From Symbiodinium sp. CCMP2592 (Eukaryota > Sar > Dinophyceae > Suessiales > Symbiodiniaceae), in NCBI GenBank assembly GCA_905221615.1, contig CAJNDT010003257.1, positions 186,001 to 250,000 of the forward strand: a DNA stretch of 64,000 bases. Reading direction: 5' to 3'. A model generated the notes under the pieces. The model had not been told where the DNA came from. It did no database searches and saw nothing but the letters and a program-made list of their open reading frames with translations. The translations under genes and the position numbers were made by a program. The stretch's first letter is position 1, and the number at the start of each line of letters is the position of its first letter. Positions 40,086-58,765 of this stretch are shown one piece after another.

Positions 40086-42071
40086 GCAAAGAACGCGTCT
40101 GAGACGGCACGAAGCGCTGCATGATCGCTGTTCTTTTAGGACTTCTGCAGCCGAAGGCCGAAGGCTACCGGCCCGTGTGATCACAGCATGATTTTAAAGA
40201 CGATGTGGCGATGACGACTCCTCTGTTAACCATGGTGATGATGGCTCTCTTGCATGGCTATGCTCCTTATTCTGATGAGACTGCGAAGCCTGCTATAAGG
40301 TTTATCCAAGACTCTTGTAACTTAAGAAAGCCACCTCCAGTAACTAAACGGCGGCAGTTTCAGTCTACTGGCCGTCGTTTTCAGGTGGGCACCCAGGTAC
40401 TGTATGGGAGGCTCTTGTGACTCTTGTGCATCCTGAAGCTACACGCCGTCCCCAGCCAACATCCGCTGGCTTGTCGTAGTAGTCACTCCATGTTGGCGAA
40501 CATCCATGCTGGGACTGGGCGAAGCACAGGTGGCCATCCATGGTTTACTTACGCCCAGCGCTACGTGGCAAAGCTGGCAGACACACGAGCAGCTGAACAA
40601 TCATGGCAGGTGAGTTCTTGTGGCAGGGTAAGGTCTACGACCGGTCGGGTGAGCTATGGTTCCTCTTTACGCTCTGGATACCGGCGAGTGGCCATTGAAG
40701 GACGTTGCTATTATGTGCATCGGCTGGTTGCCGCTGAATTCTTACCTCCTCCGCTGCCAGGGCAGTGGCAGGTAAACCACAGAGATCTTGATCCTTCCAA
40801 TAACCATGTGGGCAACTTGCAGTATGCATCACCTGCTCAAAACATGCAGCATTCCTGGCAAGCCAATCGGACAAGGAGGAGAGGAAAGCCAGTCATGTGG
40901 CGCGTTTTGGGGCAGCAATCCTGGTCTACATGTGCATCGCAGCAGCAGCTGTCGAGACTGATAGGTGTGTCGCCACAATCCATATCTCGCTGGTGCAGAG
41001 GCTCAACTCATCACATCGTTGGAAATGGTCGCAGTGCACTCTATGAAGTCAAGTTGGCAGAACTGAAAACTCATCATCCGCCTGCTTCTGACTTGGAGGA
41101 AGAGTGGCGGGCTGCCAAGCATCCAAGCACGGGGAGTATCCTGCCGGGTTTGATGGTGAGCAACCGTGGACGGCTATGGAGTTCCCGGCGAGGATGTTCT
41201 TGGCTTGGATCTCTCCACGGTGCCGGGTACTACAGAGTTAGAACGGGAGACGAAGTCTTTTTCGTGCACCGCATAGTTTCGCGCACGTTCCTTGGCAAAC
41301 CTGATGCCGGAAGACTTGAGGTAAATCACAAAGACGGCGATGGCGGCAACAACTGCGTGGACAACTTGGAGTACGTGACGCATTCAGAGAATATGAAGCA
41401 TTCGTATATACAGAAGGTAGGGCAACCCCGCAAGATTACAAACGGCAAACCAGTGCAGGCTCGTAGGCTGAGTTGCGACGGTCCATGGCAAGACTTCCCG
41501 TCCATTGGTGCAGTCGCTTTGCACGCGGCCGTTTCCCCACACACCATATCAAAAATCTGCAAGGGCCGGGCTAGGCCGTGCCGAGACTGGGACTTTCGGT
41601 TCATCATGGAGCAATCGCTTCCAGGAGAGGAGTGGCGACAGATTTGCCCAGCTGTGCTGGAGCGCGCTCGGGCGACTTTGAGTACGTAGAAAGCACCACC
41701 AATCTTGCAGATGCTAGTGCTCATGCACTTGCAGTCTCTTTAGGGTCACGCGGTTTCGGCTTTGCCCCACTGCGGTCGACCCTCGAAGTGTGATGGTGTC
41801 GGAGGCAACTTGTGCAGATGCCCACCTGGTTCTCATGCGATGGCCCGGCAAAGTACCACCGGATCCCGATCGCATGATGCCTCAATACCGAAAAGTTGCC
41901 AATCCGTATAATCTTTAGTGTCCGTAAGCAAGTAAGTATGTACGTTTGTATGCATGTATGTACGTGTCTATAGTTAATGATGTAGATGTGGTGGCTTTTG
42001 CTACCGCCCCGTCCGCTGAGACTTGCACTAGTCAATTCCTGAGCGAATGCACTGGCTCCGATGAAGCCAAG
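40086..42071 (+). other. Copy A intron 6, containing HNH-2
   Basis: 1,986 bp from GC donor to AAG|G acceptor. The paralogous intron of copy B is only 344 bp (52260-52603) and has no HNH ORF, so this intron shows gain in A or loss in B. Confidence 0.6.
40490..41689 (+). CDS. HNH-2: double NUMOD4-HNH homing-endonuclease-like protein
   Basis: The ATG at 40490 gives 399 codons; the frame is open upstream to a TTG at 40424, but no upstream ATG exists. Domain order is as in HNH-1: NUMOD4-like WQVSSCGRVRST, an HNH core with VHRLVAAEF and NHRDLDPSNN, a NUMOD1-like segment (SQQQLSRLIGVSPQSISR), then a second NUMOD4 (GLMVSNRGRLWSS), HNH (VHRIVSRTF, NHKDGDGGNN), NUMOD1-like segment and terminal EEWR. 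The second unit has NNCVDNL where relatives have NNHVQNL. The C-terminus is shorter and more diverged than in HNH-1, -3 and -4. It lies in sense orientation inside intron 6 of NMNAT-like copy A. The codons for W-Q-V-S contain CAG|GTGAGT, a strong 5' splice-site match, which may matter for expression. Nuclease function is inferred from the family. Confidence 0.82.
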   Translation: MLANIHAGTGRSTGGHPWFTYAQRYVAKLADTRAAEQSWQVSSCGRVRSTTGRVSYGSSLRSGYRRVAIEGRCYYVHRLVAAEFLPPPLPGQWQVNHRDLDPSNNHVGNLQYASPAQNMQHSWQANRTRRRGKPVMWRVLGQQSWSTCASQQQLSRLIGVSPQSISRWCRGSTHHIVGNGRSALYEVKLAELKTHHPPASDLEEEWRAAKHPSTGSILPGLMVSNRGRLWSSRRGCSWLGSLHGAGYYRVRTGDEVFFVHRIVSRTFLGKPDAGRLEVNHKDGDGGNNCVDNLEYVTHSENMKHSYIQKVGQPRKITNGKPVQARRLSCDGPWQDFPSIGAVALHAAVSPHTISKICKGRARPCRDWDFRFIMEQSLPGEEWRQICPAVLERARATLST

Positions 42072-42094
42072 GCTGGCAGAACGAGACGATGGAG
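42072..42094 (+). CDS. Copy A exon 7
   Basis: 23 nt in both copies, CCAAG|G acceptor, phase 2 to 0, GT donor (GC in B). Encodes WQNETME after completing the glycine codon from exon 6. ACG/ACC is a synonymous difference. Confidence 0.6.
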
Positions 42095-42251
42095 GTGACT
42101 GCCGCAGATGCCGCTTAGGGAGACTTGCTTTCGGATGCCCCCTTTCAGTGTAGTGAGTGCTGTGTGTTGACCTAAATACCCAAAGGTCGCGATCTCTGAG
42201 TGTGCTGGTTGTGATTTCATACAGCTGCGGCAAGTGGGCTTTGCTTGGAAG

Positions 42252-42309
42252 GCGCGCATCGAGATGTGTGAGCTGCTCACGGAGGAATCGCCACTTTGTG
42301 GGCGAGCAG
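42252..42309 (+). CDS. Copy A exon 8
   Basis: 58 nt in both copies, GGAAG|G acceptor, GC donor after GAGCAG. Encodes ARIEMCELLTEESPLCGRA, matching the R..M.el. motif of NMNAT enzymes. It ends in phase 1 so that the next glycine (GGT) is split across the HNH-bearing intron. Confidence 0.7.
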
Positions 42310-42647
42310 GCTCGTGAACCCTTAGGGTCCTCGTCAGGGCCAACAGCTCTAGAATGTCAGGCGGCTGCGAGAACGAGGGCCCTTCGGGTCTGCGCACCAA
42401 TTTTGTGGAACGGCTGTCCCGTGTGAACAAAAGGATGCTTTTTGACGTGCTGGGATCCCGCAACAACAACTCGAAGCTCGGCCCTGACCCACACACCCGA
42501 CAACCCAAGCCAGAAACACGTGCTTGAACCCGAAATGCCCCAAGAGCGAGCAGTCCGAGACCCCTAGACTCCCTTCGAGCCTCAACCCAGCCAAAGTCAA
42601 CCCCGGGACTCTCTAAAAAAGCTTAGGCCTAGCCCTTAAAGGTAACT

Positions 42648-42732
42648 CCAGAAAGTTGGAATATGGTTTCAGGGTAGGATACCCTCTAATTTACCATAAA
42701 GGGTTTCGGATAGTCATATTCCAACTTTCTGG
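42648..42732. mobile_element. 85 bp MITE-like hairpin element inside intron 8 of copy A
   Basis: A perfect 18-bp terminal inverted repeat, CCAGAAAGTTGGAATATG at 42648-42665 and CATATTCCAACTTTCTGG ending at 42732, with a core containing GGGTAGGATACCC. It is not present at the same place in copy B. No ORF. Confidence 0.7.
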
Positions 42733-43447
42733 CTTTTACTGTAAAGGGGTCTATAAGGGTTGCTATAAGGGACCTATAAGGGTACTATAATCTAGGAACC
42801 TATTCCTACTTGTCGGGTTAGGGTGGACGGAGGCGTCGGCTCCTTGCGCCGGGACCTGGGGCCCGAGCTTGGGACCTCGGCCCGGGGGCCCAGGGAGCCA
42901 AGGGAAGGGGAAGCCCGGCCGGGGAGTGAGGCCTTGCAAGGCTGAGGATCAGACAAAACGAGCTTTTGTAAGGAGGACAGTCGCAGCTGCGGCAGGTAGT
43001 TGTGCCAAAGTAGTCTTTGCTATGCGCTTTGGCTGGATGCTACAGCTCCCCAGGTAGAACTTTTCCGAGTGTGCGGGCCTAAGCTTCGTCTGACATTGCA
43101 GTTCTGGTAGGACCTGTGAACTGTGCGAGACTCAGGAGGTGCAGTACAAGGTAGCAAAACCGAGCTGGAAAGTGTCTGAGCCGGAACTCAGGTGTGGTCA
43201 AAGAGATTGCTTGATGTTGTTCAGGCTGAGGGCGCTACTCGGTGGCCCCGGGCGCGGCACGCTGACATGGGCCGTAGGCCTCGGGCAGCTGTAAACAGCA
43301 CATACAGGGCGTGAATCGCAAGGTGCTTTAATGTGCTTCAGCAAGGTTCGTCGGGTTTCTTGGCTGTGGCACCCGCAAGCATCTGTGACAACAGCATGTT
43401 GCAGTGGTTGAATCGATTGGTTCAAGCAGGCAATCGAAAAGAGCCAC

Positions 43448-44761
43448 ATGAACCGCACCGGAGAGACGAAACTCCGCCCGACAACGAATCAGGCGCAAGG
43501 CTACATACAGTCCCAAGTCTCCAAACCTCGTGTTGCGGCGCCGCAGCCTCGGCGGGTGGCCGCCAGGGTATCCGTCATGAGCTTACTTGGAGCGATTCAC
43601 TTCTCTCCAACAGTTTGTGGGCGCAGCTATCTGATTGAACTTGGAAGACTTCGGTCAACGCAAGCACGCTGGAGCGTGAGTGCTTGGCTCGTGAGCTCAC
43701 ACGGCCGTGTGCAAACCTCCACGGGCAATGTCGGCCATGGGTCGCCAGCAGGCGCTTACAGATGTGTTACAATCGAGAAAAGGCGCTATTACGTGCACAG
43801 GCTAGTGGCAGCGACCTTTATTGGTCCTGCCACTGCAGAAAGATGGCTGGTGAACCATATCGACAGAGATTGCAGCAACAATCACGTTGCTAACTTGGAG
43901 TACGTGTCTCATACGGAAAACATCCGTCATTCGTATAGCCACAATTTGGACCGCAAGAGGCCTGAAACAAAACAGGGCAAAGCAGTTGAATGGCGGTGTC
44001 TCGGAGACAGCGAGTGGTCGCTGTGCTTGACACAAGCAGAAGCCGCATGGAAATTGGGTGTATCAAACAACAGCATTTCTTCTTGCTGCTTGGGAAAGCA
44101 GGGGCACGCTTTTGGACGTGGAATTCGCTATGAGATGCGGCATGCAAATCTGGAGCCAGATGTGCAGGTGTACGAAGATTGGAAGCCGGCGGTAATTCCA
44201 GGCAGCACATGCGAGATCCCTGATCTCAAGGTCAGCAACCACGGAAGGGTTTGGTCGAAGTCATGGCGGCACAGCTATGTTACTCGCGGAAGCTGGAATC
44301 ACCATGGGTACTGTGTCGTGGCCAAAGGAGGACGAAAACACTACGTGCACCGATTGGTGGCTGCAGCCTTTCTGGGTCAGCCCTGGTTACCCGAGCTCGA
44401 GGTCAACCACATCGACTCCGACCGCGCAAACAACCACTTGCAGAACTTGGAGTACGTCACCAGGTCGCAGAACGTGAAGCACTCATACAGCCAAGGACGC
44501 GCAAGCAGAGGCTGCCCGAAGCTAGTGCAGGCACGCATGCTGGTGCCTGATGGGCCTTGGCTCGATTTCGAAAGTATCCGAGAAGCCAGTTTGCACACCG
44601 GTCTCAGCCGCGAGAAGATCAGTCGGCTTTGCAACGGGCCTGCTAGAGGCGGTGCGAGCTGGGAGTTTCGGCGCAAGGAGGCAGAGAAACTCGAAGGTGA
44701 AGAATGGCGCCCAGTAGTGCTAGAAGGAGCTCGAATTCCAATGAAGTTAACCGTAAAGTGA
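43448..44761 (+). CDS. HNH-3: double NUMOD4-HNH homing-endonuclease-like protein
   Basis: A 437-codon ORF from an ATG at 43448; the first ~80 residues are outside the shared domains and the true start may be a later ATG. Shared architecture begins at WLVSSHGRVQTS, then VHRLVAATFIGP with NHIDRDCSNN, a NUMOD1-like segment (TQAEAAWKLGVSNNSISS), a second NUMOD4 (DLKVSNHGRVWSKS), a second HNH (VHRLVAAAFLG, NHIDSDRANN), a NUMOD1-like segment and EEWRPVVLEGAR. Both HNH cores keep the expected His, Asn and Asp residues. It lies in sense orientation in intron 8 of copy A, at the same intron position as HNH-4 in copy B. The upstream half differs enough from HNH-4 that simple co-duplication is not obvious. 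Nuclease activity is inferred from the family. Confidence 0.85.
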   Translation: MNRTGETKLRPTTNQAQGYIQSQVSKPRVAAPQPRRVAARVSVMSLLGAIHFSPTVCGRSYLIELGRLRSTQARWSVSAWLVSSHGRVQTSTGNVGHGSPAGAYRCVTIEKRRYYVHRLVAATFIGPATAERWLVNHIDRDCSNNHVANLEYVSHTENIRHSYSHNLDRKRPETKQGKAVEWRCLGDSEWSLCLTQAEAAWKLGVSNNSISSCCLGKQGHAFGRGIRYEMRHANLEPDVQVYEDWKPAVIPGSTCEIPDLKVSNHGRVWSKSWRHSYVTRGSWNHHGYCVVAKGGRKHYVHRLVAAAFLGQPWLPELEVNHIDSDRANNHLQNLEYVTRSQNVKHSYSQGRASRGCPKLVQARMLVPDGPWLDFESIREASLHTGLSREKISRLCNGPARGGASWEFRRKEAEKLEGEEWRPVVLEGARIPMKLTVK

Positions 44762-45087
44762 TGTGATTCGGAGGCAAAGTTCCCGAAAAGTGAATGCGCG
44801 CGATGGACATTCCGGCGGGGCTTGGCTTTTTGCCGACATGTGGATGAATTATGCCGCAATTACATTACATCCATGGACTGAATCTGTCTCACTCTGTCAG
44901 AGACCATCTGACGCGGGTCAATAAAAGCCGGTGAGGCATCCCCATGGTGATGCCTGCATCATCCACGCATCGACGTGCAAAGCAGAAGCATCAAGGTTCA
45001 TAACCGTATGCAACGAGGAATATGAAACAGTTGCAGTCCGCGCAATCGTGGTTTCGCATGCCTCAAGATTGCCGGCTGACCTGACAG

Positions 45088-45131
45088 GTGCTGATGTGTT
45101 CGAGGGCATGAAGCATTGGGCAAGCAAAGCC
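45088..45131 (+). CDS. Copy A exon 9
   Basis: Begins after GACAG|G in phase 2, completes Gly and reads ADVFEGMKHWASKA, the conserved G-x-D...W block of NMNAT. The 3' end is approximate: GT occurs one base further on (GCCG|GTACC), which would disturb the phase. Confidence 0.65.
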
Positions 45132-45319
45132 GGTACCTGAGCAGCCCAGTTTTGCTGGCATTGAGTAAAAAAGATATTACATGTAAAAGTAGGAGTTTGC
45201 TTTCCCAAGCGACTTGCGAGCGGTAGTCCATTCCTGTTAGCCTAAAAGTACCAATCGCTCAAGTTTTGGAGGGAAACTCGACCGCTTCCAGAGAACATTC
45301 CACAGTTCGGAACTCCGAG

Positions 45320-45394
45320 GCGCGCGCCTGCCTCCAGCCCGGTGACACCTGTGACGAGCTGCTGCTTTTCACCCGTGAGGCAGAGCGCAGCAAG
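45320..45394 (+). CDS. Copy A exon 10
   Basis: 75 nt, CCGAG|G acceptor, GT donor (AAG|GTC), phase 0-0. Encodes ARACLQPGDTCDELLLFTRE and a short tail. Matches the strand and Arg (l.v..R) that follow the G-D motif in NMNAT. Confidence 0.65.
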
Positions 45395-45571
45395 GTCAAA
45401 CCACTCAATGGATTGGGGCAGGGCGAAAGGCAAAGGCGAGCATCCACAACAACGAAAGGGATGGCTGCCACTTCTTTGCGGCGAAGCAACCCACTCTCGT
45501 GCCAGACATGCATGTACATGGATTCTGTTTTTCTGGTTGCATCTCCGAGTCAGTGTTGATGCCTGCTGCAG

Positions 45572-45607
45572 GGCTGGACCCACGAGCGCTTAGCAGAGGC
45601 AACGCAG
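45572..45607 (+). CDS. Copy A exon 11
   Basis: 36 nt in both copies, GCAG|G acceptor, CAG|GT donor, phase 0-0. Encodes GWTHERLAEATQ (B: DWSHERLAAGMQ). Confidence 0.6.
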
Positions 45608-46061
45608 GTGGGACAGTCAGGGATTTCGAGGGCAGAGTATTGTATCTGTCAAGGGGCAGCAGCATCAAACGGTGTACTTGCAACTATGAAACAGCACCGG
45701 GAAATGCAATTGCACATGTGGAGAATAGGAGCATATGCTTTGTGTTTGCCTGTTGCTCTGGGACTTGAGCACTACTCCTGTAGCCACTGCTCTTGGCATG
45801 GCAGATGCTCATGAACGAAGTGTGTAGAAAAGCACTTGACCATGTTTCTCATTCCTTCGACGAGGCTGTCGGCCATGCCCCATGCCATGCAGGAAGCTCA
45901 GAGTGTTGATAGTTCTGTCACACCTGGAGCCTGGAGTTCAGATATCGTCAGTCGGCCTACCTACGTTTGCGCAGATCCATGCAAGATCGAAAATTCGGTT
46001 CCCCGAAACTAAAAGCCCTCAACTTTTGCACGTATCCTTTGATGTGGGAGCTGATGCTGAG

Positions 46062-46112
46062 GTCTCAGTCATCCCGATGCCAGAACACCTTCTCTCCGTG
46101 TCCAGCCATCAG
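46062..46112 (+). CDS. Copy A exon 12
   Basis: 51 nt in both copies, GAG|G acceptor, CAG|GC donor. Encodes VSVIPMPEHLLSVSSHQ, which joined to exon 13 gives the SSxQAR motif that corresponds to the second ATP-binding motif (SSTxxR) of NMNAT. Confidence 0.7.
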
Positions 46113-46353
46113 GCTTCCAGGGCGACTCTCCGTGACAGACTTGGAAACGGTTGAAAGCATGGAAACTCTGATCACCTTCCTCGGCATTTTCCCGGGTCAT
46201 CGCTTGAAACGACGGGTCAGCCTCTCTCAGGGTTGCTGTGTACTTGGGTCTTTCTAGTCTGTTGCCGGAGTGTGAGATGATAGAGAGGAGCCCTCGGCCA
46301 TCAACCCCAAGTCGCAGACTTTTTCAACTTTCCGCCACCCCGTCATCTCACAG

Positions 46354-46399
46354 GCGCGTGCGGCCCTCGTCCGCGAGAGCTCTTTTCCCGAGTATCCCG
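46354..46399 (+). CDS. Copy A exon 13
   Basis: 46 nt versus 43 in B (one codon), CACAG|G acceptor, GA donor (G|GACC) in both copies. Encodes ARAALVRESSFPEYP. Confidence 0.6.
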
Positions 46400-46665
46400 G
46401 ACCGCGCGAGACATGTTGGTTGATTGATGGAAGTTTGGCATAGCTCCAAGTCGCTCCAAGCCGGAACTGGCAAACGTGGCAAGGCCCTGGGCAAATGATG
46501 AGGAATCTGCCGAGCAAATACACACCTTCATAGCCGCAGGCACACGTGTCTGTTTCAACCGTTAGGACCGTAAATTATTCGAGAGGTAGCTTTAGTTGCT
46601 ATGTGCCCACAGAGCATAGAAACCTGTAGCCTCCATCGCGAGTAAGAGTTCGCTAGAGAGCGCAG

Positions 46666-46707
46666 GAGAGCTTGGCATGATACCACCCCGTGTCGCTGAG
46701 CCCCTCG
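46666..46707 (+). CDS. Copy A exon 14
   Basis: 42 nt in both copies, GCAG|G acceptor, GC donor. Encodes ELGMIPPRVAEPL, matching the C-terminal helix (IPP.V..yi) of NMNAT/NadD. Phase 2 to 1. Confidence 0.6.
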
Positions 46708-47196
46708 GCTGGACAGCTTTGGAGCCTTGGGCTGACAGATGGCTACAAAATCTGATGAGATGTTGGGTGGTCACTTGTGTTGAGGCCAAGTTGAGGCGGC
46801 ATCCGATATGCCACTCTTGAATGGTTTCCCTCTTTGTAGAAACAGTGAAGAGCACGTGCCATGACGAAGGCTGGACGGGTGGCGCCAGCAAAGAAGTCTC
46901 TTGTGTGGTCCGAAGACCAACTCAGAGTCCGATTTGTTATAATTACTGTTTATTTCTGGAAGTTCGTGTCGCAAACGATGCCTCAAACCCCGACATGAGC
47001 TGGTGCTTCTGTAAGAGGGCTCGATGTCATCAGCCGAACGACCATGAACCTTTAAAATTTCCTCTGGTCATACATGCCCCTGAACCCCCACCACATGTCA
47101 TGCGGTAGAGGTATCGCGAAATCCCACCCTGATATCATGAAGCCCTCACGTGAGAAGTGAATGCGCTGAAACCGCGCCGCAAGCGACGAGCCCAAG

Positions 47197-47226
47197 GTTT
47201 TGCTTGTCCAGAGAGGACGTGTGCAG
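47197..47226 (+). CDS. Copy A exon 15
   Basis: 30 nt in both copies, CAAG|G acceptor, GA donor (CAG|GAC). Encodes FACPERTCA in the phase set by exon 14. Nucleotide identity with B is complete across the exon. Confidence 0.5.
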
Positions 47227-47470
47227 GACGAGCCATGTCGCGCTTTGGGATTTGGTCGGTTGTTTAGTTTGGAAAGTGGAAGCAGGTTTGCAGTCGGTTG
47301 TTTGCAGTGCAGATGGTTCTTCATAGATGCCCCCAGCGACGAGCAGCACTTCGCACGGACAGCTGGTCTACAGAGACCCCAAATCTCAGACCGCAAGCCC
47401 GAACGCGAAAGCCCAATATTCATCAACAAAGCCTCTGCCTCTGGATCTTCGAAGGCGCTGTGTCCTGCAG

Positions 47471-47541
47471 GATCTATGCGCAGCAGGTTGCACGCTTGTG
47501 AGCAGCGCTGGGGTGTAGGAGAGCGGAAGCTGAGACTCTGA
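47471..47541 (+). CDS. Copy A exon 16 (3' end)
   Basis: TGCAG|G acceptor. In the inherited phase it encodes GSMRSRLHACEQRWGVGE and runs to TGA at 47539. B diverges after SRSRTEQR and runs longer. Confidence 0.45.
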
Positions 47542-48558
47542 AGTGGCAGTAAGGACATGTGCTTCGAATGTGCTTGGGCTTTGGGTCTGGGGTTTGGGCT
47601 GTGGTATGCTTTGGTTTTAGGGTTTATGATGTGGGGGTATGTAGGATCTAGGCTTTAGGTTTTGTGTTTAGGCTTTGGGTTTAGTGGGGTGGTTATGCAC
47701 ACCCAGGCCTTAAAATGCCCTAAATGCCCATAGCAGCCGGTGTCAAATCCTGTGCCATCCTCTGGAACCCATAGGGCCTGGTTCTCTGCCATATAAACTT
47801 GACTTGCTTGAGGAAATATGTATAGCAGATAGCAGCTCAGAGGGCGAACGCCGCCGTAGCCAATCTCAGCCAGCCGCTGTTTCTTCCATGTCTTTATGTA
47901 GACGCCGTGCGACACGTTCGATGTCAGCACATGGCAGGCGGGGTGCGTGTTAGCATGCCTCCGGCCCGGGTGCAGGCAGTCAAGACGTCCTGCCACCCCT
48001 CGCAACGAAAGCGTGTGGACATTCAGCATCTGTTAAGTGGCCACTTGATCATATGCTGCCTCTAAGAAATCACAAGCTGTTTGCAATCAGAAAGTAGGAA
48101 GCCTGCGCCGCCGTGTGAGGGGTAAGGATAAGGATTCTGCTGCCCAGCACCTTCAATCATACTTCTGGGTGGCTACAGTGTGTAAGCCGAACCTAGTCTT
48201 CTGAGGTTGATGTTCCAGGGCCTGCACTTATTTCGTGCTGCCACGCATCATTAGAAAAGAGTTTTTTACAGTCTTAAGGAATGGCAATGTTTGTCACGGT
48301 TTTCACCACAGGCAGTTTTTGTATCGAGCTCAAGCAAGATTCGCTCATCATCACACCAGAATACCGAACAGGTCATAACACCGCAAACGGAGAAACATCT
48401 AAAAGCAGTACTGCCAGCACTAACAAGGATCACCAATAGCAGTGTTGAAGACCCTAGTCGCAAGGGTAAAGTACAATACGGATCATGATGATGATGATGA
48501 CGACGATGGCAAGGATACTGCTGCTGCTTCGGCTACGGCGACGACTGCAACAACAACA

Positions 48559-48590
<32 letters not shown>

Positions 48591-48624
48591 CACTACTACA
48601 CAGGTGTGCCAGGTGGGTTACAAA

Positions 48625-48662
<38 letters not shown>

Positions 48663-49713
48663 CACTACTACCACTACTACCACTACTACCACTACTACCA
48701 CTACTACCACTACTACCACTACTACCACTACTACCACTACCACTACCAATATCATTACCAATGCCACTGCCACCACCGCGGCCACTACCACTACTGCTAC
48801 TGCTCATTTAGCCATTAGTTCATTCAAGCAATGCTTTAATCGAGTGCCGCCCGGTCTCACACTTTCGATTCCATGGTCGACTGGTGCGACTGGCCTCAAC
48901 AGGGTCAGCATGTGCCAGGGGTGACGAGAGTGACATCATTCTTTTAAACTCATAAGGGTACTCAGGGTGATTTGCTTTCGCTTTGTATTTCCAGCGCCGG
49001 GTTCAAGTTCAGAGCGGTTGTTCATCCACCTCTGCAGCTCCTGAGCACCAGACGTCTTGGCGAGAGCTAAGCTCCCAGGGCATTGCAGAACTATCGACGT
49101 CATTATGCCTTCCTGCAGCCTACACCCTAAAGTCGACAGCTGTACTCTTTTGCTTTGGTCACTTTCGCCATCCTCAGTCGGACGACGGATCGTCTTTCCA
49201 TTTTGCCGCAGCGGTGCGGCTGCAGTGCATTGAAGCTTAGTGAGTATTTCTTCGATCTTTGTGTGTTCAAGGTCGTGCCGGTGTTTGGACTGCTGGGAGG
49301 TTCCGCCTTGCAGGTGTTCATGATGCCAGGAGTCCTTGGGGAACTCAGGACATTGGGATTCAACATCTCCGATGTTAGGCTTACGGCATTTGATTATTGG
49401 TGTGGCTACAGGTGCATCTCACACAGGCTTGACGTCGAATGAGGGAGTTCTTGACGTTCAGGTTTTGTGAATCTGAGATTCGGAAGTCATGGCTTCGGAT
49501 TTATTTACGTGGTTTAGAGGAGGCTGTGGGACTCTGCTCTAGGGGTTGCCAGGGTACCTCTGCATCGCAACCATATTTCCGGTTGTTAATGTTTCGGGGT
49601 GCCAGGCATCAGGGATGAGCCCCAAGCCCGAAACCCTCCGCGCCCGGAAATGCCAGGCAGTAGTACCAAGCCCAGACCGGGCACATAAAGCACCCAAAGA
49701 CTTGACAATGGAG
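47542..49713. other. Region between copies A and B; TTTAGGG-like and triplet repeats
   Basis: No exon recognised. A degenerate TTTGGGG/TTTAGGG block spans about 47576-47690, and triplet repeats lie at 48.48-48.80 kb. The 5' end of copy B may extend into this region. Confidence 0.4.
48484..48805. repeat. GAT, ACT and ACTACC microsatellites
   Basis: ATGATGATGACGACG (48484-48505), then (ACT)n at 48560-48598 and 48624-48662, then an ACTACC hexamer run to about 48745, fading into ACTGCC. The Thr/Ser/Leu-rich frames are repeat translations. Confidence 0.95.
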
Positions 49714-49787
49714 GATTTTGTTGCGTGGCAGTCACCCACTTGCACTCCTACGGTTTGCCGCCGCACCCCTGATCTGCGTAGCTTCAG
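49714..49787 (+). CDS. Copy B candidate exon 1
   Basis: GGAG|G acceptor, ends CTTCAG|GTAGG. Reads DFVAWQSPTCTPTVCRR then TPDLRSFR. Only the 3' end clearly matches copy A. Confidence 0.25.
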
Positions 49788-49982
49788 GTAGGACAGCCTG
49801 TTGCCCCTACATGTGATTTGGAGCACAGAGACACCCGAGGAAGGTGATTCTCGACTAGCCTACGTTTGGGGCAGTTTTTGAAACAGAGATCATATTGTAG
49901 CGAGCCTTGAGTATATGTTGTCCCAGAAGAGAGCTTAGCCCGAACTGCAGACTGCACAAGCAGTTCTCTCTTGCTGCCTTTG

Positions 49983-50053
49983 GTTGTCCTTCTGCGCCGC
50001 CGCGATGTGCTTCCCAGAGATTGAGGACCGTGCTGCAGGGGGCCTCAGCCAAG
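49983..50053 (+). other. Block conserved with copy A 38043-38111, frame unresolved
   Basis: A possible N-terminal exon. It has a 3-nt insertion relative to A (GCCGCCGCG). Confidence 0.3.
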
Positions 50054-50395
50054 TTTTTTGGAGCCTGTGATTTACAGAAGGTGACACCAAGTCCTGTGTC
50101 TCGCTGCTTCAGGTAGTGAGGGACCACACTGCCAACAACACCTCTTGGTATAGTTGCTTAAGGTGTGATCATGTCTTGGATTTCTCCCCACTATCCTTTG
50201 TATCTTTGGATCTGTCACAGGCCACCAACCAAAATATCGCCCGTGGCAGAAGACAAACCGCAACTAGGACAATCAAACGACAGAACTTGGAACGGTCGAG
50301 TCTACCTCCAGTGATCCGCGAGGAGTGGCTAGGAGCTTTACAGGAACGGAGCACGAGTCTCGAATTACATGTATGCCCTGCCTTGTTCTGCCAAG

Positions 50396-50447
50396 GATGC
50401 GCCACTGATTGCAGATACGCCTGCAATGTCAGTGGCGCAAGTGCGGG
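50396..50447 (+). CDS. Copy B exon 2
   Basis: CAAG|G acceptor, encodes DAPLIADTPAMSVAQVR, GC donor; six bases shorter than in A, preserving frame. Confidence 0.5.
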
Positions 50448-50779
50448 GCTCGACACCAACCATTTGGCACATGTGCTATCGTGGTGCCTATGTTTTGCCG
50501 ATGACAAGATGACAAAAGATTAGGGGGATCTTCAGGAACATTGAAAGCCTTCCAGACCTTCGAGACTCTGAGTTCATGGCCCATTGCAGTTCTCAAGGCT
50601 TACGCCCTCCTCTTGATCTGTTTCTTCGCGCCTTCAACTCATATCGACTAGGGGGAGGAACACGAACCCCAAAATCCCCAGAGCCCTAGCCTCCGGCGCT
50701 TTCTAGGGCCAGGCCTGCGGGTTTTGAAGTTTCCCACTCGAACATTGACAGTACAACTACAATGCCACCATCACGCCCT

Positions 50780-50945
50780 CTTGGAACCCTAAACCCTAAA
50801 CCCCTCAACCCTAAGCCCTAATGGCTGAAGAACATAAGGGCTCTATAAACCCTATAAACCTTATATAACTATAAACCCCCCAAACCCCCGAAACCCCCTA
50901 AACCCCTTAAACCCTATAAACCCTATAAACCCTATAAACCCTGAA
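50780..50945 (-). repeat. Interstitial telomere-like CCCTAAA / CCCTATAAA block in copy B
   Basis: CCCTAAACCCTAAACCCC near 50788-50805, then AACCCTATAAACC and CCCCCTAAACCCC words to 50942. It lies between exons 2 and 3 of copy B and has no counterpart in copy A. Confidence 0.75.
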
Positions 50946-50958
50946 AGCCACCTGCGAG

Positions 50959-51021
50959 GCCATCGCGGCCACCCGCGGCCGGCTCTCGGACGTGGCCTCG
51001 GTGGCGGCCTGGGCCCGGGAG
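50959..51021 (+). CDS. Copy B exon 3
   Basis: 63 nt, GAG|G acceptor, GC donor. Encodes AIAATRGRLSDVASVAAWAR plus E. Differences from A are mostly synonymous. Confidence 0.6.
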
Positions 51022-51089
51022 GCCGTCGCCTTGAATGGCGTTTTTAAGGAGGTGTCCGGGGGTGTAGGGGTGTATTTTTTACGGGTTTG

Positions 51090-51190
51090 GGGGTTGAGGA
51101 GCTAGGGGTTGAGGGGTTTAGGGTTTGGGGTTTGAGGGGCTTTTAAGGGTTTCAGGGGTTCGGGGCTTAAGTAAGGGAGCTTAAGGGGCT
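51090..51190 (+). repeat. Degenerate GGGTTTAGGGTTTGGGG block
   Basis: TTGAGGGGTTTAGGGTTTGG and relatives (GGGTTTCAGGGG) lie after exon 3, on the opposite strand sense to the 50.8 kb block. Confidence 0.6.
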
Positions 51191-51443
51191 CGGGGATGTC
51201 GGGGGTGGAGGGATTTTTTTTTGGGGTGGGCGGGTTGCATGGGGGAGTTCGAAAGGCTTGAGTACGACACGCCAGTTTGGGGTCAGGCTTGAATCCCAAT
51301 GGAAAGCAACAGAGAATCATGCTCGATAGTTTTAGACAGACTTCTGCACAACTTTTGGGGTTGCTCTTCGGTTTCTTTGAGGGAGCCTGGAGCTTGCGAA
51401 CTTTGTAAAATCCAAGCCCGAAATAAGAACAGCTGCCCCGATG

Positions 51444-51488
51444 CAGATGCCGGCGGCCGCTGCAGCTCTCCGAGACCAACACCTAGTT
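51444..51488 (+). CDS. Copy B candidate exon 4
   Basis: Conserved block QMPAAAAALRDQHLV; borders uncertain. Confidence 0.35.
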
Positions 51489-51646
51489 CGGGCCCTTATC
51501 AGGTTTCCGTTGATGTTTGGTGTTAGAAGGCTTCTGGAGCTTGGCTGCACTTTCGGTCTCGGTGTATCCCAAACCACGCCTTCGTTTTTTTAGGGTCGAC
51601 CATACTCTCGCATGGGAATTTTATGGCACGTGCCCACGCTGTCAAG

Positions 51647-51805
51647 GTCTTCTTCAACGGAGCCTTCTCCCCTCCGACGCCTTCGGCTAAGCACCTCCGG
51701 GCCTCGTCAGCCAATCTCGGCCATGTTTTCGGTTGCTCCCGGAAGCTCAGGTGTGCCCATGCGCATATCGCAGAGACCATCTGCAAAGATCCCAAGGCCG
51801 GCCTG
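51647..51805 (+). CDS. Copy B exon 5 (ATP-binding motif)
   Basis: 159 nt, CAAG|G acceptor, GT donor (CTG|GTTTGT), phase 0-0, open throughout. Contains FFNGAFSPPTPSAKH and ends HIAETICKDPKAGL. It is the best evidence for a nucleotidyltransferase fold. Confidence 0.65.
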
Positions 51806-52219
51806 GTTTGTATGTTTGGGGTTTTGGTGTAGGGACGCAGTACGACCCACTTCTTGATGCAACGTCCGTTACAATACGGAACATGGTTTCGCGTTATATC
51901 CACGTCTACATGCATGCCGCATGCCATCATGCTTGCTATTCTTGCTAGGGCTGATCATGTTGATTGCCGTTGCTATTCTGATCGGTGTTATGGTCGCCAT
52001 TTGTGGATATTACCCCTTCTACTATTACGATTACTATTATTCCTGTTCTTACTGATTTTTGTCATTGTTGTTATCATCTTTCATGCCACTGTCTTGGTCG
52101 GTTTGTGTTGTTCCTACTGCAAACACCACTTTTGCTGCCATCATCAGTAGCAATATTAGTTATAATTGTACCCCATTCCTCCATTCCCGACTAACCAAGA
52201 GTACGTCAGAGAGAGCCAG

Positions 52220-52259
52220 GGCCCAGCTCTTTGGTTGGATCCAGAGCCGGCCAAGCCGG
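52220..52259 (+). CDS. Copy B exon 6
   Basis: 40 nt, CCAG|G acceptor, GA donor. Encodes GPALWLDPEPAKP. Phase 0 to 1. Confidence 0.65.
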
Positions 52260-52603
52260 GAAAGGAGAGACGCTTGACCAGCAAGGAGAGTAGGTCTCCC
52301 AAATCTGAGAGCCTAACCCTTATACCAGGCCAAGGAGGCAAAAAAAACCGATAAGGCGTGGGGTCTCGACCCAAGCTCCATAGCCCTAAGGTTCTCTTAT
52401 ACTGTCAGTCAAGTTCTGGTAGGAGTTAGGATCTGTTTGGGGAATGTAGTATTAGGGCTTGGGTCAGATGTGGACGACTGCTGATATTGTCATGAGTTCA
52501 GGAGTTTTGGGTTGTTCACGGGTGCGTACAGCAAATTCTCAGCACTTCTCCACGTTCATTAATGCATCACAGCCGCGCAATTCCCCTCGCATCCATCGCC
52601 AAG

Positions 52604-52626
52604 GATTTCAGAACGAGACCATGGAG
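52604..52626 (+). CDS. Copy B exon 7
   Basis: 23 nt, CAAG|G acceptor, GC donor. Encodes FQNETME; together with exon 6 it brackets the 344-bp intron that lacks an HNH ORF. Confidence 0.6.
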
Positions 52627-52688
52627 GCAGAGCTGAGTTAGAGCGAAAGATTGGACATCATGCTCGTCGTACCATGTCCCTTGCCAAG

Positions 52689-52746
52689 GCACGAATCGAG
52701 ATGTGTGAGCTAGTCACACAGGAGCCGCCACTTCGCGGTCGAGCAG
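52689..52746 (+). CDS. Copy B exon 8
   Basis: 58 nt, CAAG|G acceptor, GC donor. Encodes ARIEMCELVTQEPPLRGRA and ends inside a glycine codon. Confidence 0.7.
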
Positions 52747-54022
52747 GCTGACGTATAGCGGCAACCCATCTAGTTCAGGTCAGCATGTAGAGTAGAGAGC
52801 ATGTCTACCCCCATGCTTGAGTATGCAGAAGTCTACCGTCTCTAGTAGTGTGCCCGCACTGGGAACGGAAGCTTTTTCGCCAACGAGGGAGGCAACCAGA
52901 TCCAAGTAGCAACACCAGATAGGCTGATCGCAGCGTCGCCACATGTGCCCTACAGACCCTGAACTGCCCCAGACGATCTGCAGCAACTCTAATTCCCTTA
53001 AACCTTCAACTAGGGAAGGAGGTAGACAAGGCCCAGGTGTCTGTTTAGTGTGCATGACCTGGGACAGCCGAAATCGCAGCAAGCGAGCAGTGCACCCAAA
53101 TACACACTAATACACACGAACCCAAACATAAAGTTCAATGCAACCCGAACCCCCCTAAGCCTACAGGCGTTGGCTGCCTCAGACGAGACCTGGGCCCCGA
53201 GCTCGGAACTTCGGCCCGGGTCTCAACTGGGGCTGAGACCTACCAAGGTTTAGGTGCTTTTTCGGACTAAGGATGTTTGGGCTTCAGGCTGTTTAGTGCC
53301 TACCAGGGCTCTGAAGACCTTCCTGAGGACCTCAGATTCCTGAGTAGCCGGTGGCGGTCCAGGGAGCTTCAGCTTTGGGTTGTTGGTGCTGCTGCTTGTT
53401 TTGCGATGCTTATTTGAGCTTGCTGAGCTTTTGCGTTCAACTGATCCGGCATCTGCAGCGCTTTCGAACATCCTTGTGACACTTGCTCCGACAGAATGCC
53501 ATGTTATTGCGCTTGTGCTCACCATGTTGCTCAGGTAGAGCTCTTTCGAGTGTGCCGGCCCGAGTGCCTGCCGACTGAGCTGAAAGCCATTGCAATCACG
53601 CGCTTCTGCGCCAGTACTCAGCAATGAGTGGCCTCAGTCATTCTCAAAATCTGGCAGAGATTTCAGGAGGGCCCCTGAGCCCGAAACCATTGAGAAAGCT
53701 GCAGGCTGAGGGCACTGCTGGGCGGCCCTGGCCGGGGCAAACTGACTTGGGCACTAGGCCGGTGACAGAAAACCGGGTTCGGTTTTTGGATATAGTTAGA
53801 GTTGAGGTGTAGTTGCGCCATTTGTAGTTGCCTTTCAGCATATTGTAACGTAGGTTTCAGGGCAGGTCAATGTCCGATGTTAGGGTCCCACCACATTTGT
53901 AATGGATGGGTATGAGGTTCAGGGTGTCCGAATCGCTGGCACATTCGTGCCCAGGCAGCTTATGCAACCAGATCGGTGACCTGAACCTTCTTTCGCCCTA
54001 AGGGTTGCAAGTGGCAGCGCCC

Positions 54023-55261
54023 ATGCCATGGGTAGCCCCTGGCCGGTGGCTTCTGCCGTCCTGCTTGGGCCGGGTGGAGCGTCGGAGCTGGGGCGCGGTC
54101 CGGTGGATGGCGAGTTGTTGGCAGGTGAGCTCCTGCGGCCGCGTAAAATCTGCGAAAGGCGAAGTTACTGCTGGTTCGCTGACGTCTGCTGGCTACCGGC
54201 GCGTCATGATTTTACGGCGTGAGTACTATGTGCACAGACTTGTAGCCGCCACCTTCCTCGGCCCACCGCCATCTCTAAAGCAGTGGCAGGTGAATCACAT
54301 TGACAACAACGGTTCTAACAATAGTGTTGCAAATCTCCAGTATGTGAGCCCAACCGAGAATTTGCAGCACTCTTGGGATACGAATTGCGACCGAAGATCT
54401 AATGCTGCAAAAATGAGCAAAGCTGTGTTGTGGCGAGCCTGTGGTCACAATTCTTGGTCTGCTTGCTCATCACAAATCGAGGCAGCCAGGAAGTTGGGTG
54501 TGGATGTATCATGTGTTTCTCGCTGTCGGCGAGGTCTGACTGCAAGCTGTCGGGGATCTGAAGGGAGGTATGAATTTGCGCCGGCAGATGGTGCCGAGCC
54601 CGACATTCTGCCGGGCGAAGTGTGGATGAATGCGAGATACCCGGGAGACCAGCACAATATTCCGGGACTGATGGTTAGTGATCATGGCCGTATCCTGGCG
54701 ACTTCTAGCTACCATCGATTGCTTTCGCGAGGGTACGTGTCGCCGCAGGGCTACTGCCGTGTGAAAAAAGCAGGTCGGCACTACCTCGTGCATCGGCTAG
54801 TTGCTGGTACTTTCCTTGGTGAGCCCGAGCTTCCTGTGATGGAAGTGAACCACATAGATGCTAATCGATCCAACAACCATGTGCAGAATCTCGAGTACGT
54901 GACACGATCTCAGAGCATGCACCATGCATATGCACTTGCGAAGGCGGCCGGAAGAACGACTGGCAAAGCTGTGCGGGCACGTCGGCATTCATCAGACAGC
55001 ACATGGCTGGAGTTCAGCTCTGTAAGGTCATGTGCGTCACATACTGGAATTTCTAAGGATGCCATCTCCAAGACGTTGATTGGCCAGTTGGGTCACTGTC
55101 GTGTTGGAGCTTGGGAGTTTCGCTTGCCGGCAGAGGAATGGCCTTGCCTTCCAAACGAAGAGTGGCGCCCAGCAGTCTTTCATGGTGCTCGCGTGAGCAG
55201 ACCGAAACAGCTTGAGTCTGCCGACACATCGCAGTTGTTGAAGCCCTGCTTTGCGGATTGA
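54023..55261 (+). CDS. HNH-4: double NUMOD4-HNH homing-endonuclease-like protein
   Basis: The ATG at 54023 gives 412 codons (a TTG lies six codons upstream). First unit: NUMOD4-like WQVSSCGRVKSA, HNH with VHRLVAATFLGPPPS and NHIDNNGSNN, NUMOD1-like segment (SQIEAARKLGVDVSCVSR). Second unit: GLMVSDHGRILATS, VHRLVAGTFLG with NHIDANRSNN, NUMOD1-like SSVRSCASHTGISKDAISK, then WEFRL and EEWRPAVFHGAR. Both HNH cores look intact. Its first half looks at least as close to HNH-1, in an unrelated gene, as to HNH-3, in the paralogous intron; for example FLGPPP, WQVNHIDNN and RRSNA are shared with HNH-1. It is in sense orientation in intron 8 of copy B. The W-Q-V-S codons contain CAG|GTGAGC, a donor-like match. 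Confidence 0.85.
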   Translation: MPWVAPGRWLLPSCLGRVERRSWGAVRWMASCWQVSSCGRVKSAKGEVTAGSLTSAGYRRVMILRREYYVHRLVAATFLGPPPSLKQWQVNHIDNNGSNNSVANLQYVSPTENLQHSWDTNCDRRSNAAKMSKAVLWRACGHNSWSACSSQIEAARKLGVDVSCVSRCRRGLTASCRGSEGRYEFAPADGAEPDILPGEVWMNARYPGDQHNIPGLMVSDHGRILATSSYHRLLSRGYVSPQGYCRVKKAGRHYLVHRLVAGTFLGEPELPVMEVNHIDANRSNNHVQNLEYVTRSQSMHHAYALAKAAGRTTGKAVRARRHSSDSTWLEFSSVRSCASHTGISKDAISKTLIGQLGHCRVGAWEFRLPAEEWPCLPNEEWRPAVFHGARVSRPKQLESADTSQLLKPCFAD

Positions 55262-55544
55262 CCGTTCAACACCGCGCTCATTATGGACTCGAGGATGTGC
55301 TCGGCAAGATGAGCTGCGACACTGCTGGGGATTCAGAATGCAGGCTTAAGGTCTTCCTTTAGGGAGCAAATCTTGCCCGGCTCCGACTTCTTTTATTGTG
55401 GCTCCATGAACTGCTCATTGCCCAAGTTCACAGTGATGCTCCGCTGGGCCTTGTTTGGGCGGCAGTTGACGCTGCGGTCACAGGTTCTGCTTTCCATGGA
55501 AAGGCAGGCCTTTGCGAGCCTGCAAGTGGACCGGGGCAGCAGTT

Positions 55545-56523
55545 CCTGACTCGTGAGCTCGAATGGACGTGTGAGGTCATCCATTGGGGTGGTGAGCCAG
55601 GAAGGCTTTGCACTCCAGCGGATATCGCCGCATGCAAATCACCGGGCGTGTTTTCTGTGTCCTTCGACTTGTTGCGGCTGCTTTTCTCGGACTGCCACCA
55701 ACTGAGCCACCATGTATGGAAGCTGCAGTATGCGACACCACTTGAGAATGTCAAGCATTCCTGGCTTAGCGCTCGTCAGCACCCGTTTTGCGGCAGAGCA
55801 GTTGCATGGCGAGAATGTGGACATTCTTCGTGGTCGCATTGTCGCTGAACGCAGTTGTTTTAACTTTGGGCATAAGCCGAAAATATGCGAAGCGAGTCAC
55901 AGCAGTGGCATTCGGTATCAGATCAGGCATGTGGGCACTCGCCCTCGGAGACTACTGTTGATGAGATCTGGAAGCCTGCAAGACATGCCGGCGAAGACAT
56001 TGACATTCCTGATCTCAGCGGCAGCGTTTCCGGAACAGTTCTGTCAGTGTTTGGATCTCGCAAAGTTGTTTCGAATGGCTATGCAGTCGAAGGGGTTACC
56101 ATGTCGCGAGGAAGGCAGGTCGGGATTACACGTTTCGCCTTTGGGTTGCAGGGACTTTTCTGAGTCCACCAGCCTCGCTTCACATGCAAGTCAACCCGTG
56201 GAAACAATTGGGCGGAGAACTTGGATTATGCCACACCATCGCAGAACGCGAGGCGTTATTTGGCACAGAGGAAAGACGTAGAGAGCAAGGCGACCCAGGC
56301 CAAACACGTGCAGGTTCAACACATCGTGTCTGACAGCGCCTGGCTGGATTGCCGCTCCATGAAGGAGGCCGCAGCTCACACTCGATGCACCTCGATCTCG
56401 TGTCTTTGCAACTGGCTCCAAACCAGCGGCCGTGGTGTAGCTTGGCAATTTCGCTACACAGTTGAAGAAGCCGTTTCAGATGAAGAGTGGCATCCCGTGG
56501 TATTGGATGGCGCTCGCAAGGGC
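55545..56523 (+). pseudogene. HNH-5: decayed double NUMOD4-HNH gene
   Basis: Pieces in several frames rebuild the HNH family order: VSSNGRVRSSIG near 55553, a NUMOD4/HNH join ending LVAAAFLG where the usual VHR reads VLR (His lost), LQYATPLENVKHSWL, then a second NUMOD4 remnant (DEIWKPARHAGEDIDIPDL). Next is a second HNH core from which the N-H-x-D part is deleted, leaving NNWAENLDYATPSQNARR, and finally WQFRY and DEEWHPVVLDGARKG. Several frameshifts and the loss of both catalytic histidine motifs mark it as a pseudogene. It directly follows HNH-4 in the same intron and may be an older resident or a tandem partner. Confidence 0.75.
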
Positions 56524-56889
56524 TGAAGCTGCAATCACCATGTGAAAATGATGCCCGGTGCCTGTCAGAAGATTCAGTCGTATGCTGCTGTTGGTTTGCA
56601 GTTGATCTCGTTTGTTTTCGTAGAACCTGGTCGATCACGCACGGGTAGAGGAAGGAGAGGCAGGCTGCAAACCGATTACAACCTGCTCGGATGAGCCATG
56701 TTTCACAGAAAAGCTCCGCCTATACACAACACGTCCATTATAGAAGCCATGCCCAGTAGCGAGACTAACCGATGTAGACGTGTGTCTGGCAGTTGTGGTT
56801 AAGGCGAAGACGAGGAGATCGAACATATCGAACCAGGGAGAGTGAGACGCGTCGAGAGTGTCGTGCTCGTACGCCGCACGTGTTGCCAG

Positions 56890-56933
56890 GCGCTGACGTA
56901 TTCGAAGGTATGAAGCACTGGGCCAGTAAAGCT
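56890..56933 (+). CDS. Copy B exon 9
   Basis: GCCAG|G acceptor, phase 2, encodes ADVFEGMKHWASKA with the split glycine restored (GCA G|GC). The 3' end is approximate. Confidence 0.65.
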
Positions 56934-57082
56934 CAGGGCTGAGATTTTTCTGCATGCGGCAGTTGCAGCGTTTGAGTGCGCCATACAGGACACGAATCCG
57001 TTAACTTGAAGTGATCCTCCATCCCCGGTTGAGGCAAGAGGGCGTAGCAAGGTATCCGACTGACTTTTGCCAAGATACCTAG

Positions 57083-57157
57083 GCCCGCGCTTGTCTTCAG
57101 CCTGGAGACACCTGTGATGAGCTCCTCCTTTTCACTCGAGAGGCTCCGTCACGCACA
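57083..57157 (+). CDS. Copy B exon 10
   Basis: CCTAG|G acceptor, encodes ARACLQPGDTCDELLLFTRE and a tail. The closest GT donor is one base beyond the in-phase end, so there may be a 1-nt frameshift here. Confidence 0.6.
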
Positions 57158-57418
57158 GGTATCTTTTGCACTCAGCGTTTCCTCTGCGCACAGTTGCCCG
57201 ATCCGGAACATCATCTACAGGGCACGACGTAAGGAGCTAGAAATCGAGACGCAGACACAGTCTTACACTTGTCTTATCTTCGCATTGCTTGGATTGATGT
57301 AGCAGGGAGATTCAAGAACGAGAATCGTCTGAAATCTGGTGCCTACAATCCTGCCATGCAATCGGTTTAGGCTTAGGGTTCAGGGCCCGGACAGGCTCTA
57401 ACCCTCTGCTAAAGCCAG

Positions 57419-57454
57419 GACTGGTCGCACGAGCGCCTAGCAGCTGGAATGCAG
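57419..57454 (+). CDS. Copy B exon 11
   Basis: 36 nt, GCCAG|G acceptor, GCAG|GT donor. Encodes DWSHERLAAGMQ. Confidence 0.6.
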
Positions 57455-57817
57455 GTTCCTTGCACATTGCTTGAAGGGCCGTGCTTCTGCAAGCAACAGA
57501 CTGTGTCGGAGTTGCAAGGCATAAGTTGGTAGGCAAGACAGTGCAAGGAGTACTTGTATCGGCACCCCGCTTGGTCACTCGTGATGGATGTGCAACCCCG
57601 AACTGGACAGATACAAGTCTGGCTTTCCGTGGCACTCCATCACTCGGCAGGTAATCGGCGATGCACCATGCCATGCCCGATGCCCAGCTGCACTGTTGCT
57701 GTTGGGCTTTCATGAGGAGACTTTCAGCAACGCTAGTACCTTCATTGAAGAAGAAGTGCGAGCCGGTGTGAGCCTCGCGTGGTACATTTTGTGACTTGTA
57801 TATGCCTTTGCATGCAG

Positions 57818-57868
57818 GTCTCGGTCATCCCTATGCCGGATCACTTGCTCTCTGTGTCCAGCCAGCAG
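57818..57868 (+). CDS. Copy B exon 12
   Basis: 51 nt, TGCAG|G acceptor, CAG|GC donor. Encodes VSVIPMPDHLLSVSSQQ. Confidence 0.7.
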
Positions 57869-58437: not shown

Positions 58438-58480
58438 GCCCGTGCTGCTCTGGTCCGTGATAGAGCCGGAGAGAAATCTG
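58438..58480 (+). CDS. Copy B exon 13
   Basis: 43 nt, CACAG|G acceptor, GA donor (TCTG|GACC). Encodes ARAALVRDRAGEKS. Confidence 0.6.
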
Positions 58481-58723: not shown

Positions 58724-58765
58724 GAGAGCTGAGCGTGATACCACCCCGCGTCGCTGAGCACCTGG
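58724..58765 (+). CDS. Copy B exon 14
   Basis: 42 nt, GTGCAG|G acceptor, GC donor. Encodes ELSVIPPRVAEHL. Confidence 0.65.

Follow-up and report, generated by a model that had tools for sequence, protein, structure and literature searches.

How does a gene of the homing-endonuclease type come to reside inside an ordinary intron of a nuclear gene, and what keeps it there? The question is raised by a 64,000-nucleotide stretch of the Symbiodinium sp. CCMP2592 genome (contig CAJNDT010003257.1, positions 186,001 to 250,000, forward strand; hereafter the window), in which open reading frames (ORFs) for proteins with two HNH domains are found between the exons of two tandem NMNAT-like genes, copies A and B. 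The sequence-only reading of this DNA had noticed the nesting and had suggested a selfish intron or an intron-spreading system. The explanation towards which we lean, with somewhat more conviction than doubt, is that these are intronless nuclear double-HNH genes which would have spread long ago as ORFs without any intron of their own, six of them now lying in sense within spliceosomal introns of unrelated hosts, and which would have been kept intact.

Four intact HNH ORFs and one relic are present in the window, all on the forward strand: HNH-1 (28640..29821, 393 aa), which lies beyond the span 40086..56889 occupied by the others, HNH-2 (40424..41689, first Met at 40490), HNH-3 (43448..44761, 437 aa), HNH-4 (54005..55261, first Met at 54023) and HNH-5 (about 55517..56517), a relic with in-frame stops and with frame changes in its alignment. 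Each of the four intact ORFs encodes two HNH domains, recognised as two PF13392 (HNH_3) stretches (71.5-78.9 bits, for a cut-off of 24.8); the NUMOD4 and NUMOD-like matches in HNH-2, HNH-3 and HNH-4 fall under the Pfam cut-offs and none is listed for HNH-1. The host exons are defined by the comparison of copy A (39091-47229) with copy B (50956-58946), two colinear matches about 12 kb apart. Over 14 compared blocks, 112 of 669 coding bases differ, 15, 6 and 91 of them at codon positions 1, 2 and 3 (nonsynonymous divergence dN 0.052, synonymous divergence dS 0.80, dN/dS 0.065), and this predominance of third-position changes shows that HNH-2 to HNH-5 are flanked by genuine exons on either side. 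In the nucleotide self-comparison of the window, the A/B similarity is mainly that of the exons. Block px (LRALLGGPGRGTLTWAV in A) joins its neighbours in frame at both ends in A and in B, and of the 12 bases at which it differs between the copies, 10 occupy third codon positions. The 15-nt micro-exon e5b (NETME, 42080..42094 in A) is deduced from the A/B match and the junctions, and the nesting would stand without it, as it would wherever exactly the provisional e7/e8 junction of copy A may lie. The position of intact HNH-2, HNH-3 and HNH-4 and of broken HNH-5 between NMNAT-like exons, as the sequence-only reading had it, is borne out by the A/B exon match and its low dN/dS, so that the nesting holds as far as genomic sequence alone can tell.

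The two introns concerned were delimited by hand in both copies (a slash marks the boundary). The e5/e5b intron, GA-AG and in phase 0, measures 1989 nt in A (40091..42079, AAA/GA..AG/AAC), where it contains HNH-2, and 347 nt in B (52265..52611, AAG/GA..AG/AAC), where it contains no HNH. The px/e9 intron, GC-AG and in phase 1, measures 1810 nt in A (43278..45087, GTA G/GC..AG/GT GCT) and 3132 nt in B (53758..56889, CTA G/GC..AG/GC GCT), this one position housing HNH-3 in A and both HNH-4 and the relic HNH-5 in B. The HNH-bearing introns of A and B, and that of the ABCG-type host described below, all combine a GC or GA donor of the dinoflagellate type with an AG acceptor and preserve the frame, and they would therefore be spliceosomal introns of the dinoflagellate type; such GC/GA-AG boundaries account for 25-74% of the introns in Symbiodiniaceae, according to the portion of PMC11453091 available to us.

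Could the HNH gene have brought its own intron with it? This idea of a selfish or spreading intron draws on the fact that, wherever a host can be named (six loci), the HNH ORFs are entirely intronic, and we regard it as very improbable: the e5/e5b intron is present in copy B without HNH, the donors of the HNH introns are unlike (GA in e5/e5b and in the ABCG-type host, GC in px/e9), the homology between HNH copies ends near the ATG and the stop, and no group I or group II RNA is detected. The search for group I/II cores, which the sequence-only reading had itself proposed, was run with Rfam and yielded 0 families at the gathering score over the whole window; positions 40000-57000, scanned with E values of up to 5 allowed, gave four weaker matches, among which group I and group II introns are absent. 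An endonuclease encoded by a group I/II intron was rejected on the same Rfam result, which gives no sign of the host intron being a ribozyme. An intein-type endonuclease was rejected too, since stops part each HNH ORF from the host exons and exclude in-frame embedding. It is also hardly credible that the HNH ORFs are alternative exons, a fused host domain or an assembly artefact, a view with nothing specific in its favour, because each ORF lies between two stops and contains a Met of its own, the host reading frame continues from exon to exon when the ORF is left out, and one architecture recurs at 18 loci.

That recurrence emerges from the whole assembly (1.098 Gb, 5383 contigs), in which 42 PF13392 matches, retained from 54 candidates, group as 23 loci: 18 intact two-domain ORFs (385-449 codons between stops) and five others (L015, L021, L025, L026 and L027). 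The relic HNH-5 is additional to these, as the genome-wide PF13392 search did not list it. Among the five, L025 (contig C1070) and L026 (C5212) are two similar duplicated segments with a decayed HNH copy in each. A host can be named for 6 of the 18 intact copies, namely HNH-2, HNH-3, HNH-4, L009, L018 and L022. The HNH of L009 (C4915) occupies a GA-AG intron of 2.0 kb, preceded by an exon ending LVVALK and followed by one beginning ELAEANVP (..LDSYAAYTLVVALK/GA, HNH, AG/GAGCTC ELAEANVPVLCTVHQPSSEIF); once joined, these exons find PDR and ABCG transporters, with a best E of 2.7e-10, which makes the ABCG-type transporter a clear assignment by sequence match. At L018 (C1957) the exons preceding the HNH match residues 147-230 of HYDIN (7sqc, E 1.9e-9), and 9ijj is listed with a match (E 0.001; query 6-115 of 115, on chain 199-310) whose range takes in an exon 3.8 kb past the HNH; a HYDIN-like host is a good assignment on these matches. 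At L022 (C3257:599k) an exon with methyltransferase motif I precedes the HNH and the later motifs follow it, the two sides joined giving E 1.4e-5 and the downstream exons by themselves 2.5e-3, both under the Pfam cut-off, and the putative methyltransferase host is of moderate strength. HNH homing-endonuclease-like ORFs in sense within spliceosomal-type introns, the arrangement first read from the NMNAT-like pair, are thus met in more than one gene. The host exons of L009, L018 and L022 were chosen by eye, in sense frames only, before the searches; these three loci consequently support the nesting and do not independently support the orientation, for which the independent support comes from the NMNAT-like pair and from the agreement of strands within contigs. 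Indeed, on the contigs that carry more than one locus (8, 5, 3 and 2 loci) all loci of a contig lie on one strand, an arrangement of probability 2^-14 under random orientation, a figure that is descriptive because the contigs were picked after the matches had been seen.

The distribution of the loci and the limits of their homology bear on a second alternative, according to which the HNH genes are ordinary dispersed duplicates that fell into introns by chance, their address being biologically meaningless. Four contigs (C3257, C1957, C225 and C4915), which represent 0.33% of the assembly, carry 18 of the 23 loci, 17 of them intact, and this concentration suggests regional duplication; the HNH-rich contigs are perhaps one chromosome region, though the copies are deeply diverged. 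Furthermore, the genes of dinoflagellates share their orientation and do not lack introns, as stated in the accessible text of PMC11453091, and a sense intronic placement can therefore arise passively. On the other hand, in the five pairs compared the strong homology barely passes the limits of the ORF, the other matches being short, and the same NMNAT-like intron holds HNH sequences in both A and B. With these facts in hand, chance duplication strikes us as doubtful, tending to unlikely.

The closest pair, L017/L012 (dN 0.185, dS 0.505, dN/dS 0.37), establishes how small the shared segment is: the homology starts 8 nt upstream of the shared ATG and runs beyond the last sense codon by 25 nt in L017 and by 13 nt in L012, without including any intron end, and the other matches in the flanks are short and repeat-like. 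In the four other pairs compared (dN/dS 0.25-0.30), strong homology is likewise confined to the ORF or extends a few tens of bases beyond it. It is this ORF-sized homology, and not an intron, that recurs between dispersed copies; together with the HNH-free intron of copy B and the lack of a ribozyme in the Rfam search, it weighs against the suggestion of an intron-spreading system. Two traces of retroposition were sought around the copies and neither was found: a poly-A tract was not seen by eye within 90 nt past any stop, and a spliced-leader relic was absent, as detailed below.

The same ORF-sized homology is one of the arguments for a still-mobile selfish family of homing endonucleases, which would spread by cutting and repair and for which introns would be harmless landing sites. 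This alternative also draws on the I-HmuI-type nature of the proteins by profile and fold (see below), on the presence of an HNH in A and its absence in B at e5/e5b, and on the fact that HNH-4 and HNH-5 share one intron yet are not closest relatives. HNH-5 has its highest-scoring partner in HNH-1 (248 bits, as against 192 bits with HNH-4), and the px/e9 intron of copy B may for this reason have been colonised more than once. HNH-3 and HNH-4, which occupy the same position in A and B, are sisters with moderate support (94/91); they differ at 58 of 82 fourfold sites, compared with 62 of 134 in the host exons of A and B. A joint duplication with the host gene was rejected on this excess of divergence, and the HNH-3/HNH-4 split looks, by these counts, either older than the A/B duplication or the result of separate arrivals. 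Against current mobility stands the absence of recent copies among the 18, whose protein identity is 47% on average and 71% at most, the latter in the pair with a dS of 0.5. Fewer of the loci recovered are broken than intact, in a search biased to intact ones, and the mobile family has no comparable insertion point to show, for the introns of A and B do not align with each other and insertion points could not be compared. Intact frames, dN/dS below 0.4 in five pairs and the lack of young copies together make it more likely that the copies are retained because they serve a function than that they are spreading now, and a family still on the move is, in our view, possible though doubtful.

What function could be retained? 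The profile of the 18 family proteins matches residues 14-171 of the 174 of the I-HmuI structure (PDB 1u3e) with E 2.2e-15, and the predicted structure of HNH-4 (predicted local distance difference test, pLDDT, 81.3; predicted template-modelling score, pTM, 0.49) finds I-HmuI as its top Foldseek match (E 3.8e-9), with no other below 0.001. The relationship to I-HmuI is established by these two approaches, and the family would be one of double I-HmuI-type HNH endonucleases whose nuclease activity is predicted. Both cores are conserved, as 49 columns beyond the start Met are invariant in the 18 proteins, including the His and Asn of the HNH motif in both domains, residues with a recognised role in HNH proteins. 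HNH-4 matches 900 phage records, every one at less than 60% identity. A regular expression found a two-core ORF in 3 of 160 fetched prokaryote and viral loci, and a slightly looser one found two cores in 18 of 18 family members, two counts which are not strictly comparable.

The proteins also carry a leader. In 18 of 18 the Met stands at least 24 residues ahead of the conserved core; Asp and Glu make up 2.4% of the pooled leaders versus 8.6% of the mature part (p 1e-6); Arg dominates the basic residues (11.7%, with Lys at 1.6%) and occupies position -6 in 15 of 18 leaders. Compared with 356 M-initiated ORFs of the flanks, the leaders have a lower acidic content (p 8e-5) and a higher net charge (p 5e-4). 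Acid-poor leaders with Arg at -6 hint at mitochondrial import.

The model we propose combines these observations. The copies would have spread long ago as ORF-only inserts, through complementary DNA or break repair, and the inserts would have survived where splicing strips them from the host messenger RNA. Their sense direction would have been retained so that the host transcript could yield an HNH messenger RNA, spliced-leader trans-splicing being one possible route. With less confidence, we suggest that the leader, poor in acidic residues, might target the protein to mitochondria, where DNA would be nicked or cut, and selection at the level of the host, rather than ongoing homing, might maintain the intact genes. 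A more ambitious version, in which some 18 diverging phage-derived double-HNH nucleases, encoded in host introns and imported into the mitochondrion, were domesticated to cut or recombine its fragmented genome, is unlikely in our estimation.

Several observations weigh against this model and its mitochondrial extension. Introns take up the greater part of the gene length in this DNA, and an intronic address is accordingly what one would expect of any insertion that a gene tolerates. No host is named for 12 of the 18 intact loci, and the tabulation of HNH ORFs relative to introns, another proposal of the sequence-only reading, places six of the 18 intact copies of this assembly. The exons of L009, L018 and L022 having been picked by eye in sense frames, any host gene on the opposite strand would have escaped notice, and their E-values are optimistic. 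Pfam, searched with joined sense-frame flank fragments of L016, L024, L020, L018, L023, L009 and L022, gave no family at E up to 0.5; PDB gave no match for selected flank fragments of L016, L019 and L024, and a single chance match (E 0.62) for those of L020, L018, L022 and L023. Pfam finds no family even in the joined ABCG-type exons of L009, that is, it misses this host as well. No spliced-leader relic is present upstream of 17 loci (all but HNH-3), the best matches, 11-13 of 21, being the same as in shuffles. As to import, Lys plus Arg amount to 13.3% of the leaders and 13.1% of the mature part and, in the comparison with the control flank ORFs, to 12.7% of the leaders versus 11.9%, and the leaders have a maximum hydrophobic moment no higher than that of control ORFs (0.34 versus 0.35); with basic content and hydrophobic moment not clearly above control levels, import is a suggestion only.

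The whole-flank searches were run without L010, L011, L012, L013, L014, L017 and HNH-1. Short exon candidates from L010 and L023 matched no family, L012 shows a weak CFAP65-like exon pair on its downstream side only (E 0.018), and the matches of L018 DNA to its own genome are swamped by dispersed repeats. The last 1 kb or so of L013 in HNH orientation (C1957, about 815-816 kb) is AT-rich, with 33-38% GC.

In copy A, also on the forward strand and delimited by conservation with B, blocks e1-e5 lie at 39091-39159, 39424-39465, 39577-39624, 39695-39748 and 40052-40090, with mostly third-position changes; e6, e7, e8 and px at 42252-42311, 42835-42885, 43054-43077 and 43226-43277; and e9-e13 at 45088-45131, 45320-45382, 46062-46112, 46354-46377 and 46662-46709. 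In copy B, the same comparison places e1-e5 within 50956..52264 and e9-e13 within 56890..58767. The name NMNAT/NadD-like is a weak assignment, taken from matches to NCBIfam TIGR00482 (E 0.015 and 0.018) that are far short of the family cut-off; neither copy matches Pfam or PDB, and no convincing third copy was found in the rest of the window, in the next 10 kb or in the genome. Two intron segments are dispersed repeats, 42637-42743 in copy A (93% identical to L010 8526-8632) and 52147-52196 in copy B (94% identical to L010 8846-8895). Elsewhere in the window, whose GC content of about 53% over most of its length is, like the GA and GC splice donors and the polinton-like insert described below, in keeping with a symbiodiniacean dinoflagellate, there are a 9-bp tandem array with frames open on both strands (8197-9090), a complex array whose periods are close to 74, 138 and 148 bp (20572-24483) and two long ORFs of 551 and 507 aa (17790-19445 and 61848-63371) without a convincing Pfam match.

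In conclusion, an intact multi-copy family with several members in ordinary spliceosomal introns would add another stable home for homing-endonuclease-type genes to those already familiar, namely self-splicing introns, inteins and phage genomes with free-standing copies. It also offers a concrete system in which to study how sense-nested genes are expressed amid co-oriented clusters and trans-splicing and, should the leaders indeed direct import into mitochondria, a candidate agent of the breaking up and recombining of mitochondrial DNA in dinoflagellates. In the titles and abstract openings of the open-licence papers that our searches listed we recognised no description of HNH genes nested in ordinary spliceosomal introns. 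Nuclear homing endonucleases such as I-PpoI are encoded in group I introns of ribosomal DNA, which are ribozymes; the present family is likewise nuclear and intron-encoded, but it resides in spliceosomal-type introns of protein genes, in which no ribozyme was found. With the I-HmuI-type phage endonucleases (PDB 1u3e; PF13392 with NUMOD4 and NUMOD1) it shares the HNH core and, by matches under the Pfam cut-offs, putative NUMOD-like parts, and it differs from I-HmuI by its two units per protein, its nuclear location, its variable leader, the lack of a self-splicing intron and, as read by eye, an N-terminus without the first half of NUMOD4 and a C-terminus that repeats it. Closest in layout is L028, a double NUMOD4-HNH_3-NUMOD1 ORF which also has each domain in two stretches, but which belongs to a viral contig of close-packed ORFs, the nature of these ORFs being judged by eye, and is 25% identical to HNH-4. 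I-HmuI-like HNH domains in a dinoflagellate nuclear genome are also described, in the excerpt available of PMC12220804, for the HNH_3 proteins with NUMOD4 and AP2 of Symbiodinium polinton-like viruses; there, unlike in the double-HNH family, a single HNH with AP2 lies within an AT-rich virus-like insert. The genome studied here has an HNH of that type as well, at L027 (C347:346500-356400), where an AT-rich stretch of about 9 kb (near 28% GC) with Pox_A32 (packaging-ATPase-like), Peptidase_S74 and single NUMOD4-HNH_3-AP2 ORFs has the look of an endogenous virus of the polinton-like type that this excerpt reports for Symbiodinium. Finally, the dinoflagellate introners, in what could be consulted of PMC11453091, resemble the HNH family as mobile DNA linked to spliceosomal introns; introners, however, create new introns, whereas in the HNH case the intron exists in copy B without HNH and the closest copies have no common intron ends.

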